A DNA stretch of 36,103 nucleotides from Gammaproteobacteria bacterium (GCA_011375345.1 DRLM01000038.1:1-36103); one strand, 5' to 3'. Shown: positions 200 to 7,869, counted from the stretch's first letter. Program-made: numbers and translations. Notes: a model not told the origin generated them from the letters alone.

Positions 200-2188
200 T
201 TATGTTTTTACCTTCAATTTGGGTTTGGCCTTGTTGAGCATTTTGATGCGCTCTTCCAAGGGAGGTTTTTCGTTGGGGTCTATCCGAATATCAAGGATTG
301 TTGGGCCTTGGCGCCGGGTTATGGCCGCCATATCAAGCCGAATAAACTCATCAGGAGAGTCAATGCGAAAAGCGTTGGCTCCCAATGCCTTGCCGTAGGC
401 GCAAAAGTCTACCGATGGCAGCTCATAAGCAATTGGCTCTGCCCCGGCCATTTGTTGTCCGTGCTTTACTGTTCCGAGGGCACCGTCATTGAGTACAACG
501 AATATCACAGGAATCTTTTCTGTGACTGCGGTTGTTATTTCTTGTCCGCTCATAAGCAGAGCGCCATCACCAGTAATGCATACCACCGGCCCGTTTGGTT
601 TGCACATCGCCGTGCCTACAGCGACGCCGATAGCCCATCCCATGGAAGAAAATCCCATGCCCAGCCGCACATCACCGCCTTCGGGCCGGCGTGCGTTGTT
701 CACGGTGTTACGCCGGTCGTAGGGGTGGAGATAGTGGATGGCCCACAGGAAGCTGTTCCCTATGTCGGCAATGTAGCGTGTATTGGGCGGGAACCTGCGA
801 GACAGGTCGTACATCAGCCGTTGCGGTTTATATGGTATGGAGTTTGAAAAATATTTGTGTTCGTTGCTTAAGGCGAAATGGCGTGTAACGGGTGGAAGGC
901 CCTCGTTGGTTCTGCGGTTAGAATCCTGTCTACGTCGGTCACGCGCCAAACCGTAGATTCCGTAATCTGTGTCCTGGACTGACTGTCGTCTGTCTTGAGT
1001 GCGGCGTTCAAAAGGTGTTTTCGGGGGTTGATTGTATATTTTTTCGGCGTTGACGGCTGTAACGGTGTTTGAGCGCGCGTTTCGGATCTGCTCTGAGTGG
1101 GCACGCGCCTGATTCAACAAGCGCGTCATTACTGCGCGGATGTCGCCATGGATATGTTGCCGGGCCATCGGTGCCCGGGAAAAACTTTCCGGGCTGTCGT
1201 CCATGAATATGGATTTGCTGCTAAGCAATCCGCTGGGCGCCCAACCGTTGGTGGCCAGTTCATCCAAATCTGATCCTATAACTACGACCAGGTCGATATG
1301 GCGGCTTAGGAGCAACTCGTGGGCGGTGGAATGGCCGGCCAAGCCGAAGATTCCCCTGAACAGGGGATGGTAGGCGTTAACAAGACCTTTGCCTTGCGGC
1401 GTCGCGACGATGTATGCGGAGAACAAGTGGCATACTTCCAGTATTTCCTCCACAGCTCCGCGGGAACGTGGCCCGATGACCAGTACAGGGAATCTGGCCG
1501 CAGCCAGTGCGAACAGCAACTGTTTTACGGCGTTTTCGTCAACGGTGTTTGAGTTGCACATCAGGGAGTCGAGGTTGCTGTAGGGGGCTTCCAGGGTAAT
1601 ATTCCGCCGGAACACGTCCAGCGGCACGCTGATATGCGCAGGTCCTTTCGGTGCGTGCAGGGCGGCGTTGACGGCACTTACGAGTTTTCGTTCCAGCTGG
1701 TTGATGTGGGATACGAGCGAGCTGAAGCGGGTGCAGTGTTCGTACATGGCGACGGTGTTGATTCCCGTGCACGACGATTCCTGTACGCCGCCGCGGCCGA
1801 AGGTGGGCAGCGGGGTCTGGGCCGTGATGGCGAGCAGGGGGATCTGGTCCTGGTAGGCGGAGGCAATGCCGGTGATCATATTGGTGGCGCCCGGTCCGGT
1901 GGTGGCGCAGCAGACGCCGATTTTGCCGCTCTCCCGGGCGTAGCCGTCCGCCATGAAGGCGGCGCCGGCTTCGTGGCGGGCGACCACCGGGCGTGGTCCG
2001 CCCCGTCTCTGGCTGCGGGCCAGGGCATCGTAAAACGGCTCGATGCCGCCGCCGGGAATACCGAAGACGTATTCCACTCCCAGTTGTTCCAGATAGTGAA
2101 TGATGAGGTCGGCGCCGGTAAATGAGTCCTGTGCCGGCGAGACGAGCGCCTCGTTGGCCAGGGTCTCGGTAGACTCTGAATGGTGCAT
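200..2188 (-). CDS. Thiamine-diphosphate enzyme of the acetolactate synthase family, with linker insertion
   Basis: The 662-residue product has the three-domain layout of acetolactate synthase-like enzymes. The N-terminal PYR domain shows FGIPGGGIEPFYDAL (about 42-56) and the catalytic glutamate in RHEAGAAF (E73). The central domain covers about 215-355. The C-terminal PP domain has the thiamine-diphosphate motif starting at GDG (540-542) and ending at VVLNDG (N567). Members usually have 550-590 residues. The extra length is mainly an Arg-rich, low-complexity linker at about 365-440 (ERRTQDRR, RDRRRQDSNRR) between the central and PP domains. The ATG at 2188 was chosen because the family homology starts soon after it and GGGAAG lies upstream; the frame stays open to 2437. 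No regulatory ilvN-like subunit is nearby, so branched-chain amino acid synthesis is not assured. It could act on another 2-oxo acid. Confidence 0.75.
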   Translation of the reverse strand: MHHSESTETLANEALVSPAQDSFTGADLIIHYLEQLGVEYVFGIPGGGIEPFYDALARSQRRGGPRPVVARHEAGAAFMADGYARESGKIGVCCATTGPGATNMITGIASAYQDQIPLLAITAQTPLPTFGRGGVQESSCTGINTVAMYEHCTRFSSLVSHINQLERKLVSAVNAALHAPKGPAHISVPLDVFRRNITLEAPYSNLDSLMCNSNTVDENAVKQLLFALAAARFPVLVIGPRSRGAVEEILEVCHLFSAYIVATPQGKGLVNAYHPLFRGIFGLAGHSTAHELLLSRHIDLVVVIGSDLDELATNGWAPSGLLSSKSIFMDDSPESFSRAPMARQHIHGDIRAVMTRLLNQARAHSEQIRNARSNTVTAVNAEKIYNQPPKTPFERRTQDRRQSVQDTDYGIYGLARDRRRQDSNRRTNEGLPPVTRHFALSNEHKYFSNSIPYKPQRLMYDLSRRFPPNTRYIADIGNSFLWAIHYLHPYDRRNTVNNARRPEGGDVRLGMGFSSMGWAIGVAVGTAMCKPNGPVVCITGDGALLMSGQEITTAVTEKIPVIFVVLNDGALGTVKHGQQMAGAEPIAYELPSVDFCAYGKALGANAFRIDSPDEFIRLDMAAITRRQGPTILDIRIDPNEKPPLEERIKMLNKAKPKLKVKT

Positions 2189-2403
2189 GGGCGTGTACTT
2201 CCCGCAAGCGTGCTTACTATCAAAAATAAGCAAGGGATCAGGCCGTTGCAAGGTGAGGGATGATTTCGCCACGGGAGGCGCCGAAAACGGTGATTGCGTC
2301 GTCATACCACCTGCCGCGCCGTGTTCATACTTGTGGGAACGGCCCCGGCCGCGATGGCATGGCCCGAAGGCACCTGCGAACATGTTGACCTGTTGATCTG
2401 GCT

Positions 2404-2569
2404 GGATGTTGAACAAGGCTCTCCCGGGCTTTTTCAAGGTTCAAGGCCGGCCGTTGCATACGCTGTTTACGGCTGCCGCACATGTTCAATGACTTATCGT
2501 CATTGAATATGACGGTGCATCCACATACCGCACACAGCCTGTTGAAAAACGAAGTTTTTCAACAGGCTG
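2404..2569 (-). repeat. Hairpin-rich repeat, copy A of an inverted pair
   Basis: Read on the minus strand, this segment aligns along its whole length with the plus strand at 5391-5551. It starts with a perfect 16-bp hairpin (CAGCCTGTTGAAAAAC, 3-nt loop, at 2535-2569), continues through shared blocks such as TGACGATAAGTCATTGAA, and ends with an imperfect hairpin at 2409-2437 followed by ACATCC. A further palindrome, TTCAATGAC with GTCATTGAA, lies at 2485-2507. Compared with copy B, one stem position has changed on both arms (C-G against T-A), so pairing is kept. It lies directly downstream of the GGDEF-EAL gene. Confidence 0.75.
2535..2569 (-). terminator. Strong hairpin 19 bp after the GGDEF-EAL gene, possible terminator
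   Basis: A perfect 16-bp stem with a 3-nt loop begins 18 bp beyond the stop codon of the minus-strand c-di-GMP gene. The stem contains A5/T5 tracts but is not followed by a classical T-run, so factor-independent termination is plausible but unproven. The same hairpin type occurs in copy B, upstream of the gene, where it cannot serve this purpose. Its primary identity may therefore be part of the repeat. Confidence 0.4.
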
Positions 2570-2587
2570 CCAGAGGTGGTCCCGGCT

Positions 2588-5149
2588 TCAGGCAGGGCTG
2601 ATGCGGGGGTGGGCGGCGCGGTATTCGTTGATGGGCGCGACGCCGCCGGTGTTGTTTCCCTGCACATAGTCCACCCCGATGTTGCGCAAGTGTTCCATGA
2701 CCGCATTGCTTTCCACGCATTCCGCGATGGTTTTTTTGCCGAGTATGTGGGCAATCTCGTTCATGGAGCGCACCATGGTGAGGTCGAGATCGTTGTGGGC
2801 GATGTTTCTGATGTAGGAACCGTCGAGCTTGAGATAGTCGGTGGGCAGCTGGCGGAGATACTGATAAGAGCAATAGCCGGTGCCGAAGTCGTCCAGAGCG
2901 AAGCGGCAGCCCACTTTTCTGAGCCTGCGGATCATGCGCTGGGTTTCGGTGATGTTGGCCACGCTGGCGGTTTCGGTGATTTCAAAAATGACGCGCTGCG
3001 GCTCGAGGCGGTGGTGCTTCAGGGTGGCCTGGATGTAGTGGATGAGGTCGGGGTCCTCAAAGGCGCGCCCGGAAAGATTGATAGCCAGGCAATGAATCCA
3101 GCGGTGCGTCGCCAGATGCTCCATGGCACGGTTGATCACCCAGCGGTCCAGGGCATGAATCTGGCCGGCTTTTTCCACCGCGGGGATGAACGTTGCCGGG
3201 GTGACCAATTCCTGGTGACCGGGTGAGTGCAGGCGCAGCAGGGCTTCGTAGTGATGCACGGCCCGGCTGACGGTATCGACGATGGGCTGTATGTGCAGCT
3301 CCAGTTGTTGTTCGGCAATGGCCTGGCGGACGCGGTGGGCCCAATCGACGGTATGGCGCAGTTCTTCGCTGTCCCGGTCTGCAGGGTTGTACACATGCAC
3401 GAGGTTGCGGCCCCGGTTTTTGGCCACGAAACTGGCCTTGTCCGCCCGCACCAGATGTTCCGCAGCACCTGCCTGGCCGCCGTCCAACAGGCTCACGCCA
3501 ATGCTGCAGCCCAGGGTCAGGCTTGTGTCGCCGGAAGAGAAGGTGTGGTCGTTGATGGCTTTGATGATGGCCTCGGCGACAGCGATGGCCTGAGGCCGGT
3601 CGGTATGGGTGAGCAACAGGGCGAATTCATCGCCACCCAGGCGGCACAAGGTGTCGGCACTTCGGGTGCGGGCGGCCAGCAGTTCCGACACCTCCTTGAG
3701 GATGAGGTCACCTTCCCTGTGCCCCAGGGTGTCGTTGAGCATTTGAAAATGGTCGAGATCGATGTAGAGCAGGGCGTGGGGCGCGCCCGAGCGGGCACCG
3801 CTGGCCAGGGTGTGCTCCAGGCTCATTTCGAAGTAGCGCCGGTTGTAAAGGCCGGTAAGGCTGTCGTGCATCGCCATGTGTTCCACCTGTTCCATGGCGC
3901 GTTTGCGCTCGGTGATGTCCGTCAGGTGGCCGACGATGGCTTCCACGCCGTGCACCGGATGCTGGCGGCAGTCCAGGGTGATCTCGGCCCAGAGCACCTC
4001 GCCCTGTTTGTTCTGCAGGCGCAGTTCCTGTTTGTGGTGCAGTGTCCGGCCCTCGGCCAGGGATTTCATCACGCTGCGGTAGTGGCGCCGGTCTTCGGTG
4101 TGAAGAAACTCATGCAGCGGCCGCCCCAGGGTGTCGCGCACTTTATGTTGACTGAGCTGTTCCCAGGCCAGATTCAAAAAGCGCAGCCGGCCTTTTGTAT
4201 CCAGTTCGAAGACCACCGCGCCGAGGTTGTCCAGCAGGCGTTGATGGGCGTCGGCGATTTTCTGATAGTTTTCTTGCACCGTTCGCAGCGCGTGACCGCG
4301 CTGGGAGAATTCCTCATTGTTGGTCAGCCAGTCGTCGCGCCGCAGGGCCATTTCGCAGATTTCGCGCAATTGATTGGCGTGGAAGGGCTTGGCGATGAAA
4401 TCCACGGCCCCGTCCAGCATGAGCTCTTCACAGCGCTCGGCGGTGCCGTCGGCGGTCATGATGACCACGGCCTGGCGGGGCTTGAGTTTCAGCATTTCAT
4501 TCAACACTTCCGGCCCTGCCAGTTTGGGCAGCATCACGTCCAACAGCACCAGGTCGTAGTTGCCTTCGCGCCAGCGGGTCAAACCGGTGCGGCCATCGGT
4601 GACCACTTCCACCTGGAAACGGTGCCGCAGCATGCGCGAGGCCAGTACGGCGGTGTCAGGATCGTCCTCGATGATGAGCAAGGAGGGTTTGGGCACGAAC
4701 TGGCCGCTGTCTTCCAGCAACTCAGTAACGGTATCCGCCAGGATCTGGCGACGCGCCAGCGGCAGTGCCAGGAAACGGTTGATGCCGAATTCCCTGGCGC
4801 TGCTTTCCGCGAGGCGCTCGCTGTAGGTGGCGGAGACGGCGATGATGGGGATGGTGCTGGCAGAGCTGAACAGGCCGGACCGCACCATGCGCGCCAGGCG
4901 CCAGCCATCCAGGTGCGGCATGTGGATGTCGGTAATCAACACATCCACCTTGCTCAGCTTGAGCTGGCGGATGGCAGCGCGGCCGTCACCGGCTTCTTTG
5001 ATATGGGAATACCCCGCCTGTTTGAGATTGCGGGTAAGGAGGTCGCGGGTATCGGGGGAGTCGTTGACGATCAATATTCGGGGGATGCGGCCGCTTTTGA
5101 GGCTGCGGCGGCGGGGCAGGGGGATAACGCGTTCACCACAGACGGTCAT
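2588..5149 (-). CDS. Hybrid response regulator with REC-REC-PAS-GGDEF-EAL domains (c-di-GMP turnover)
   Basis: The 853-residue cytoplasmic protein joins five domains. REC1 (about 23-140) has phospho-acceptor D74 in LITDIHMP but lacks the usual Lys-Pro (FLALPL). REC2 (155-270) has D204 and K254. A PAS/PAC domain spans about 303-415. The GGDEF domain (about 425-585) has an intact GGDEF at 505-509 and an inhibitory RxxD site (RSAD, 496-499). The EAL domain (about 605-850) has EAL at 635-637, N691, E723, DDFGTG at 753-758, K774, E810 and Q830. Both diguanylate cyclase and phosphodiesterase motifs look intact, so the protein may be bifunctional, with the balance set by phosphorylation and the PAS domain. 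The end of the EAL domain reads QGNNTGG instead of the common QGYxxGxP. No partner kinase adjoins it. The ATG start has a weak ribosome-binding site. The gene sits alone between inverted repeats. Confidence 0.92.
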   Translation of the reverse strand: MTVCGERVIPLPRRRSLKSGRIPRILIVNDSPDTRDLLTRNLKQAGYSHIKEAGDGRAAIRQLKLSKVDVLITDIHMPHLDGWRLARMVRSGLFSSASTIPIIAVSATYSERLAESSAREFGINRFLALPLARRQILADTVTELLEDSGQFVPKPSLLIIEDDPDTAVLASRMLRHRFQVEVVTDGRTGLTRWREGNYDLVLLDVMLPKLAGPEVLNEMLKLKPRQAVVIMTADGTAERCEELMLDGAVDFIAKPFHANQLREICEMALRRDDWLTNNEEFSQRGHALRTVQENYQKIADAHQRLLDNLGAVVFELDTKGRLRFLNLAWEQLSQHKVRDTLGRPLHEFLHTEDRRHYRSVMKSLAEGRTLHHKQELRLQNKQGEVLWAEITLDCRQHPVHGVEAIVGHLTDITERKRAMEQVEHMAMHDSLTGLYNRRYFEMSLEHTLASGARSGAPHALLYIDLDHFQMLNDTLGHREGDLILKEVSELLAARTRSADTLCRLGGDEFALLLTHTDRPQAIAVAEAIIKAINDHTFSSGDTSLTLGCSIGVSLLDGGQAGAAEHLVRADKASFVAKNRGRNLVHVYNPADRDSEELRHTVDWAHRVRQAIAEQQLELHIQPIVDTVSRAVHHYEALLRLHSPGHQELVTPATFIPAVEKAGQIHALDRWVINRAMEHLATHRWIHCLAINLSGRAFEDPDLIHYIQATLKHHRLEPQRVIFEITETASVANITETQRMIRRLRKVGCRFALDDFGTGYCSYQYLRQLPTDYLKLDGSYIRNIAHNDLDLTMVRSMNEIAHILGKKTIAECVESNAVMEHLRNIGVDYVQGNNTGGVAPINEYRAAHPRISPA

Positions 5150-5844
5150 GGGGCGCTACCCAGGCGGCAACAGCGACGCCTTCGGTGCGGCTGCCGCCTG
5201 CCCGCCGCGCATATCGCCGGGTTGTTGACCCAAATGCCGTCCATGCCTGCCATGCCCACACTCCGATTTGGGCGCCAAGAAAATTGCAAGAGATGCTTGC
5301 CTTAGGCTTTTAGCACTCCGAAACCGGGGTGTCAAGAATGGCCGAGCCCTTATGGGCCGAGGTGAACGGGATCGATGGCCGCGGCGTTGACAGCTTGTTG
5401 AAAAAGGCTGTTTTTCAACAAGCTGTGTGCGGTGTAGGGCTGCACCGTCATTTTCTTGGTGACGATAAGTCATTGAAAATGTAAGGCCGCCGCAAACCGT
5501 GTTGGCAGCCGCCGGCGTTGAAAAAGGCCAGGAAGGCCTTTTTTAACATCCTGTTAAAGTTCCCCCGGGGGCGGCCGTTTCATGCCATGAGGTGTTCGGG
5601 GCCCCATGAACCGGCGTCCAGGCGGCGGGTTGATCGAATCCGTGGCAGCTCTGGCAGCCTGACAGCGGTCATGTAGAAGCGGCGTCATATTGAGACGCGC
5701 CAGCCCGGTGTTTCCACACTTCGCAGCAGCTCGCTTATCGCGGTCTGTCAGGACTCATTCAGACCGTTCGCAGCAATCTTCTGTGATGGTTGTTGCCAGC
5801 GGCGGCGGACTGGGCCGTGCAGCCCGTGACACAGGATTATTGTC
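5150..5844. other. Long intergenic region between divergent signalling genes
   Basis: This 695-bp gap lies between the start of the GGDEF-EAL gene (minus) and the start of the Wsp-type MCP (plus), so it should hold promoters for both. It contains repeat copy B (5391-5551). Frames inside it look like spurious high-GC or repeat-derived frames. No convincing sigma-70, sigma-54 or sigma-28 site was found in front of the MCP. Confidence 0.55.
5391..5551 (+). repeat. Hairpin-rich repeat, copy B of an inverted pair
   Basis: The plus strand begins with a perfect 15-bp hairpin (CAGCTTGTTGAAAAA, loop GGCTG, partner arm 5411-5425). Shared sequence with copy A follows (TGTGCGGT, TGCACCGTCAT, TGACGATAAGTCATTGAA). 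The unit ends with a second hairpin, GTTGAAAAAGGCC (5517-5529) pairing with GGCCTTTTTTAAC (5535-5547) through one G-T pair, then ATCC. It is inverted relative to copy A, so the two copies bracket the GGDEF-EAL gene with their strong hairpins facing inward. It lies about 240 bp upstream of that gene's start. Confidence 0.75.
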
Positions 5845-7869
5845 ATGCAGAACATCGTCGACGGCGCGCCGAAAAAATCACTTTCTTTGCGCACCAAGAT
5901 CAATCTGGCCATCGCGCTTATTTTTGTGCTGGTGATTGCTTCAGTCACCTTTTATTCCAGTCAGCGCCAGCAGGAGGCCACGTTGTTGTTGGCCGAGCAG
6001 CAGGTCAAGGACATGTCCACCATGTACTTCGACAGCCTCAACACCATGATGCTGACCGGCACCATGAGCGAGCGTGGGATCTTGCGCAAGAAAATGTTGC
6101 GCCGCAACCATGTGCTGGAAGCGCGGGTGGTGCGGGGCATGCCGGTCAAGGGTCAGTTTGGGGAGGGCATGCCGGAAGAACAAGCGGTGGATGAGTTGGA
6201 CCAGCGCGCCTTGGCCGGTGAAGATGTCCTGGTGGTGAAGCGTGGCAAAGAAGGCCGGGTAGTCACTGTGCTGACCCCTTTCCGGGCCACCACCAACACC
6301 CGCGGCGTCAACTGCCTGCAATGTCACCAGGTGCCCTCCGGGGCGGTCAATGGCGCCATCCGCATCAGCTATTCCCTGGCCGATCTGGATGCTGCCGTGC
6401 AAAAGGAACTGTGGATCGGCGCCGGTGCCAATGTTCTTTTGTTGGGCTTGGGCTTGGTGTTGGTGAACCTGTTGCTGCGCAACTGGATTTCGGTTCCCCT
6501 GCGTTCTGTTATGGACGCCGTGAGCCGGCGGGCCCAGGGCGACCGGCAGGCCCGCTCCAATGTGATGAGTTACGACGAGCTGGGGCAACTGGCCCGCGCC
6601 TTTAACAAGATGGCCGACAAGGTGGACGAAAGCGCCGACCGCGAGCGCCACAACGCGGAGGAGCTGTGCCGCAACGTCAACGAACTGTTGTCCGTGGTCA
6701 GCCGCGCCGCCGCGGGTGATCTGAGCGTTGAAGTCAATGTCGTCGGTGGCGGTGCCATAGGCGAACTGGGGCGTGGCTTGCAACAAATGATCGAGGGTCT
6801 CAGGGGCCTCATGGAGGAGCGCCGCCAGGCCATCGAGGATCTCCAGGCCAAGGTGGACGGCATGCTGGCCATGGTCACCCGGGCGGCGGGTGGCGATCTG
6901 ACCGGCACCCTGCCCGATCTGGGCGAGGATGCCATCGGCCGCCTGGGCAAAAGCATGCAATGCATGGTGGACAAACTCAGCGGCCTGGTGAATCAGGTGC
7001 AGCAATCGGGTATCCAGGTCACCTCCTCGGCCACCGAAATCGCCGCCACCGCCAAGCAACAGGAGGCCACGGCGGCGGAACAGGCGGCGACGGTCAATGA
7101 AATTGTCGCCACATCAACGGAGATATCCGCCACCGCGAAGGAGTTGCTCAACACCATGGAAGAAGTGGCCCACGTGTCCGAGGCCACCGCCGAGGCGGCC
7201 GCCAATGGTCAGTCGGGCCTGGAAAAAATGGAAGCCACCATGCACCACGTGGTGGACGCCTCCGCCTCCATCGCCTCCAAGCTGGAAGTGCTCAACGAAA
7301 AGGCCAGCAACATCAACACCGTGGTCACCACCATCACCAAAGTGGCGGACCAGACTAACTTGCTGTCGCTGAATGCCGCCATTGAGGCGGAAAAAGCCGG
7401 CGAATACGGCCAGGGCTTCGCCGTGGTGGCCACCGAAATCCGCCGCCTGGCGGACCAGACCGCCGTGGCCACCTGGGACATCGAGCAGATGGTCAAGGAG
7501 ATGCAGTCGGCGGTGACCGCCGGCGTGATGAGCGTGGAGAAATTCTCCGAGGAGGTGCGCCGCAGTGTGGCGGAAGTGGAAACCGTCGGCCATCAGCTGG
7601 TGCAGATCATCGAACAGGTGCAGGCGCTCACTCCCCGCTTCGAGACCGTGCACGAGGGGATGCAATCCCAGGCCCAGGGCGCCGAACAGATCAAGCAGGC
7701 CATGATCCAGCTCAACGAGGCGGCGCAGCAGACCGTGCAGTCCCTGCGGCAGTCCAATTCCGCCATCGAGCGCCTGAACGACGCCGCCCATGGCTTGCAG
7801 CAGGGGGTGTCCCGTTTCAAGGTGAAAAAGCGGGACAGCGACGGCGGTTCGTGGCTGGCCAGTGCCTGA
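5845..7869 (+). CDS. wspA: WspA-like methyl-accepting chemotaxis protein with a periplasmic c-type heme motif
   Basis: The 674-residue receptor has TM1 (about 19-38), a periplasmic domain of ~150 residues, TM2 (about 190-212) and a HAMP domain (about 211-265). Two further HAMP-like segments follow ([11 protein letters not shown] near 287, [11 protein letters not shown] near 346), then a signalling coiled coil with the conserved tip [20 protein letters not shown] (501-520). The periplasmic domain contains CLQCH at 157-161, a CxxCH motif for covalent heme c attachment, about 30 residues before TM2. The start at 5845 has CAGGA at suitable spacing. It is the first gene of a seven-gene run in Wsp order, so it should control the CheA-type kinase at 10369. 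Pseudomonas WspA is known for surface-linked signalling. The heme suggests redox or gas-ligand sensing here, which is inference. No C-terminal CheR-tethering pentapeptide is seen. Confidence 0.88.

Follow-up and report, generated by a model that had tools for sequence, protein, structure and literature searches.

MITEs with the ends of insertion sequences (ISs) are already well known, and bacterial MITEs are commonly seen as passive leftovers with a single long palindrome. MITEs such as ERIC, Correia/NEMIS and QMITE share with the element described here a length of 100–200 bp, terminal inverted repeats and a target duplication, as well as a mainly intergenic location and strong folds (PMC2229807, PMC10969869). 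Members of this kind mostly form one stem-loop by end-to-end pairing (PMC2229807, PMC10969869), whereas the present element comprises five separate hairpins in a row, the order of which is fixed across families. Its nearest structural parallels are CIR and BOX. The CIR repeats of Caulobacter are likewise intergenic, with more than one hairpin arm and a linker, but they have two arms, a GANTC motif and alphaproteobacterial hosts (PMC2229807), as against five arms and IS5-type ends here. The BOX elements of Streptococcus are likewise modular, and modules can be missing from them (PMC3049150), as in those copies of our element that consist of H1-H4-H5 and measure 96–98 bp; they differ in sequence and host group, and the available text of that source does not mention IS5-type ends.

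Two further systems share single traits with the element. REP/BIME sequences with their RAYT are also intergenic palindromes present in many copies, but they are 20–40 bp long and tied to Y1 transposases (PMC2817692, PMC3733652), in contrast to an element of 160 bp that has DDE-type duplications and no Y1 linkage. IS5-family ISs (DUF772 plus DDE_Tnp_1; NF033581) have the terminal inverted repeat CAGGSTGTTGAAAAA and the 4-bp NTAN duplication in common with the element, which, unlike them, is gene-less and has an interior of five hairpins with no recognizable remnant of a transposase gene. What is unusual in the element is that the five-hairpin row is kept while most of its letters change. No paper describing it was found in the open-access literature, where neither text searches for the end sequence nor searches for MITEs with covariation gave anything relevant.

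Two copies beside a GGDEF-EAL gene

The element was studied in a 36,103-nucleotide stretch of gammaproteobacterial DNA (the window), whose own genome (G000) comprises 2.68 Mb in 162 contigs. An earlier note, made from the sequence of the window, had described segments 2404–2569 and 5391–5551 as inverted copies of one repeat bracketing a GGDEF-EAL gene. These segments are indeed reverse complements of each other, matching at 81–82% in three successive blocks. This is far above what chance would give: each copy has dozens of relatives in G000. When the borders were fixed by aligning 18 copies, the element was found to run from CAG to CTG, which revises the extents of both copies (Table 1). Read in this direction, each copy is a series of five hairpins, beginning with H1 on the GGDEF side, followed by H2, H3 and H4, and ending with H5 outermost. 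The architecture first proposed, with hairpins at both ends of the unit, is correct for the ends, but there are five hairpins per unit, not two. The perfect hairpins on the gene-facing side (H1) are confirmed, as are the identical block TGACGATAAGTCATTGAA and the one pair that differs between the copies by compensated changes on both arms (CAGCCTG/CAGGCTG versus CAGCTTG/CAAGCTG); the outer hairpin (H5) is present in both copies, but that of copy 1 is decayed. Folding of each copy was stronger than that of 200 of 200 dinucleotide shuffles (z-scores of −6.7 and −5.2 for the two copies).

Table 1 Features of the GGDEF-EAL locus and of the two repeat copies (window positions).
Feature	Position	Strand	Remarks
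Thiamine-pyrophosphate (TPP) enzyme, acetolactate-synthase-like	200–2188	-	Resident neighbor; domain search, orthologous loci
Copy 1 flank CTGG	2398–2401	.	Expected place of target duplication; opposite flank CCAG, so no direct duplication remains
Copy 1 (putative MITE)	2402–2569	-	168 bp; CAG...CTG borders; right end decayed; 18 nt past GGDEF-EAL stop
Copy 1 H5	2408–2438	-	Decayed; carries insertion
Copy 1 H4	2449–2477	-	Imperfect
Copy 1 H3	2481–2511	-	Contains block TGACGATAAGTCATTGAA
Copy 1 H2	2513–2530	-	Alignment and pair counts
Copy 1 H1	2535–2569	-	16 perfect pairs
GGDEF-EAL gene	2588–5149	-	Resident, outside element; two receiver domains, PAS, GGDEF, EAL
Copy 2 left flank TTGA	5387–5390	.	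3 of 4 bases agree with right flank TTAA
Copy 2 (putative MITE)	5391–5553	+	163 bp; CAG...CTG borders; in divergent GGDEF-EAL/MCP gap
Copy 2 H1	5391–5425	+	15 perfect pairs
Copy 2 H2	5430–5447	+	Alignment and pair counts
Copy 2 H3	5449–5481	+	Alignment, pair counts and fold
Copy 2 H4	5485–5513	+	Imperfect
Copy 2 H5	5517–5547	+	A5-GGCC..GGCC-T5 form
Copy 2 right flank TTAA	5554–5557	.	Counterpart of left flank TTGA
Methyl-accepting chemotaxis protein (MCP)	5845–7869	+	Resident neighbor; domain search, orthologous loci

Copies also lie elsewhere in the genome: a similarity search matched 43 places in G000, ~30 of which, on many contigs, are copies or fragments. The element is ~160 bp long (~163–168 bp in the window copies) and has no capacity to encode a transposase. 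The window copies share 73% with each other; copy 2 is nearest to a copy on contig C77 (83%) and copy 1 to one on C40 (77%), and the two are not sisters. Orthologs of the GGDEF-EAL gene, with 57–65% identity, were identified in four genomes of the same family (G001, G002, G004 and G005) and one of another family (G027). The order TPP enzyme, GGDEF-EAL, MCP is retained in four of the five, and in G005 a contig end leaves GGDEF-EAL and MCP alone visible. The repeat is absent from the covered gaps beside the gene in 5/5 of these genomes, which belong to other genera. Given the scatter of copies through the genome, the non-sister relationship of the window pair and the repeat-free orthologous loci, the bracketing came about by chance, through two independent insertions. 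By these comparisons the GGDEF-EAL gene itself is ancestral and both insertions are later: the window copies arrived separately, long ago, in gaps flanking a pre-existing gene.

The same evidence decides among the possibilities raised in the earlier note. That the paired inverted repeats moved jointly as a composite unit, carrying the 3.1-kb GGDEF-EAL segment, would suit the inverted layout around a single gene but is hardly credible, because G000 holds scattered single copies, the gene and its neighbors are conserved without repeats at the orthologous loci, the window copies are 27% different, and no target duplication spans the whole segment; moreover, ~35 scattered copies are expected to yield ~1.3 pairs as close as the window pair, and there is a second close pair on contig 17 of G000. 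A cis-regulatory RNA or terminator serving the GGDEF-EAL gene or its neighbors is also very improbable. The short distance of copy 1 from the GGDEF stop, the position of copy 2 in a divergent promoter gap and the strong folding of both copies speak for such a role, and the element itself is indeed strongly structured, but the repeat is missing from the gaps at the orthologous loci and adjoins many unrelated genes throughout its scatter, and an Rfam covariance-model scan returned nothing at either window copy at E up to 10. The suggestion of a REP/MITE-like family with two chance insertions was the right one, as a MITE and not as a REP. On the strand opposite the GGDEF-EAL gene, a 692-codon open frame (window 3227–5305, +) probably results from codon usage at high G+C.

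Elsewhere in G000, solo hairpins of 35 and 42 bp (on C33, C55, C81, C119, C127 and others) link a CAGGATG end directly to a CAAGCTG end, which looks like the outcome of an interior deletion between repeated stem sequences. Two copies (L024 on C89 and L025 on C40) are identical over 139 bp and stop at contig ends, and only 14 bases separate a similar third (L021 on C93) from the end of its contig. All three closely resemble copies in G072, a genome of another family, which suggests a young subgroup and recent movement or exchange between families; the assembly breaks there, with C40, C89 and C93 ending in or at the repeat, and is blind at those points. An enrichment of insertions at stop codons, striking at first pass, rests on a home-made gene finder and is a lead only. 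Insertions inside open reading frames of G072, called with the home-made gene finder on joined flanks, were traced to antisense or spurious frames entering apparent real genes (dapF- and mpl-like), and we therefore make no claim of gene disruption.

IS5-type ends and 4-bp target duplications

The ends of the element are CAGSNTGTTGAAAAA in inverted orientation, and in G072 the end pattern has 80 matches and the reversed pattern 0. The copies in this genome are the freshest: exact 4-bp direct repeats flank 25 of 49, whereas 20,000 shuffles averaged 6.7 and reached 15 at most. Borders may be wrong for a few of these 49, and the choice of many G072 copies by similarity to a query favors intact ones. 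The duplications are almost all NTAN and mostly YTAR (TTAA, CTAA, TTAG); ATAA/ATAA, GTAA/GTAA and CTAA/CTAA are non-palindromic, which identifies them as genuine duplications. Two pairs of G072 copies lie head to tail with common target bases (C135, C217), and intact duplications also surround copies in G020, G027, G117, G174, G307, G315 and G330. At the window copies, where target duplications had been proposed as a check, neither pair of flanks is an exact duplication (CTGG/CCAG and TTGA/TTAA), although the flanks of copy 2 are probably a decayed one. Integron attC sites were considered for the GTTA-like ends and rejected, as the copies are dispersed with 4-bp duplications and not in arrays.

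The same ends and 4-bp duplications, here TTAA or CTAG, also occur on complete IS5-type ISs with a DUF772 plus DDE transposase: four copies with identical transposases in G266, one in G045 (L118), whose transposase has the DUF772 domain, and one on an IMG/VR viral contig (L172). The transposases of G266 and L172 match the NCBIfam IS5-family model NF033581 with 267.6 and 266.4 bits, respectively (cut-off, 140 bits). In addition to its transposase, G045 contains derivatives with related ends. The IS on L172 (6235–7781; CTAG duplication) has additional sequence separating the transposase gene from its right end, and in G266 the 4-bp flanks of two identical IS copies (L114 and L117) are swapped (CTAA and GTAG), which indicates either that these copies recombined or that the assembly is wrong there. 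A DUF772 search gave no match in G000 or G072, whose contigs break at repeats, and the G266 transposase protein, searched against the MITE-bearing genomes, had weak matches in G330 only.

Target duplications are usual for DDE, and not Y1, transposition, and they point to the former. Mobilization as REP/BIME-type palindromes by a Y1 (RAYT) transposase is accordingly most improbable, despite the palindromic, intergenic and multicopy nature of the element, the occurrence of solo hairpins and the presence of Y1 transposases in element-bearing genomes: the element's ends were not found within ~1.5 kb of 19 Y1 loci, the RAYT of G000 is tied to a different repeat, and the hairpin foot has no GTAG/CGTC tag. 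A Y1-type (RAYT-like) transposase gene at ~1130–1950 of L032 (G000, C62) is bracketed by inverted copies of the short repeat AAGGGGTCAGAGCCC.

We consider it probable (roughly 0.8) that the repeat is a gene-less MITE of ~160 bp with IS5-type ends, mobilized in trans, and that the window copies are separate old insertions. This reading draws on what can be seen directly in the sequences, namely the scatter of copies, their common ends, the 4-bp duplications, the occurrence of these ends on complete IS5-type ISs and the repeat-free orthologous sites. An IS5-type DDE transposase would recognize the ends CAGSNTGTTGAAAAA...TTTTTCAACANSCTG, act on them in trans, cut at CAG...CTG and insert the element at NTAN, with duplication of the four bases. 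The window's own assembly yielded no such transposase, so that its action in trans is inferred from other genomes.

Conserved pairing in the five-hairpin interior

The same order of five hairpins is found in G000, G013, G020, G027, G072, G117, G174, G307 and G315, and by eye in G476; across these genomes the H2 loop is similar (NGGA type), H5 is shared and the stem sequences are different. The five-hairpin subfamilies come from about nine gammaproteobacterial families. One exact pattern, which gives lower bounds, detected the element in at least 11 of 369 genomes of a class sample and at least 2 of 398 of a phylum sample (G000 and G476 only). A plasmid collection contained no copies, and a scan of a contig collection with the core TGCACCGTCATNTTCAATGAC retrieved just two Bacteroidales records, probably chance matches. 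Several copies of the element (L098, L104 and L155, in G117 and G072) have another short hairpin repeat, GGAATCTCTGA...TCAGAGATTCC, beside them, and at L155 the element is inserted at the center of this repeat. In one copy from G174 (L092), an extra hairpin is nested within H4 and the host stem is retained. Derivatives of the shortened H1-H4-H5 type with intact duplications occur in G307 and G330.

When arms from hand-picked representatives were compared, 98% of positions in H3 and 95% in H4 paired with their own arm, as against 66% and 69% with arms of other subfamilies; 0 of 20,000 shuffles were as good for H3 and H4, and p was below 1e-3 for H1 and H2. Within G000, both sides are changed in 15 pairs (shuffles gave 7.3), and pairing holds in 88% of cells, compared with 31–47% after sliding. 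Among 38 G072 copies, divergence per site is 1.4% in stems and 7.8% in unpaired positions, a roughly fivefold difference to which a few hypervariable loop sites contribute.

A serious alternative for part of this covariation is templated (quasipalindrome) correction, in which replication uses one arm as the template for the other, without selection or function. It would account for the compensated pairs private to single old copies (C40, C18; L022) and for paired changes among scattered copies that are each expected to be neutral. As an explanation of the conserved pairing it is possible but not favored: conservation across families of the H4 and H5 loops and of the H2 loop type is unexplained by correction of stems, and decayed G000 copies contain about five unpaired cells for every double change. 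In the preferred account, the five hairpins (H1–H5) stand in fixed order between the IS5-type ends and are preserved across families by paired changes. They would most likely be upheld on source copies that still move, while inserted copies decay.

In G072 the depletion of private stem changes is mild (p = 0.025), and decayed G000 copies have no strand bias (50 G-T wobbles and 52 A-C mismatches; two fixed wobble pairs confound the same test in G072), so that single copies may have no function of their own. A consensus terminator scan selected neither H1 nor H5; from its A5-GGCC...GGCC-T5 form, a terminator-like role for H5 is plausible. On the source copies, the hairpins would probably serve as stable RNA or single-strand folds that punctuate transcription and so let insertions beside genes be tolerated. 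It is a tentative and rather unlikely proposal that the five-hairpin array works in the transposition cycle or in the element's RNA, for example as a folded single strand that draws the two ends together or shields the element.

For the GGDEF-EAL locus, these results settle the bracketing as coincidental. More broadly, a five-hairpin family spread across many gammaproteobacterial families offers a direct test of whether the structure of a MITE is selected or mended by mutation, and comes with its own collection of natural compensatory mutants. If the array does prove functional, the element would represent a class of mini-transposon in which the information conserved lies more in structure than in sequence.
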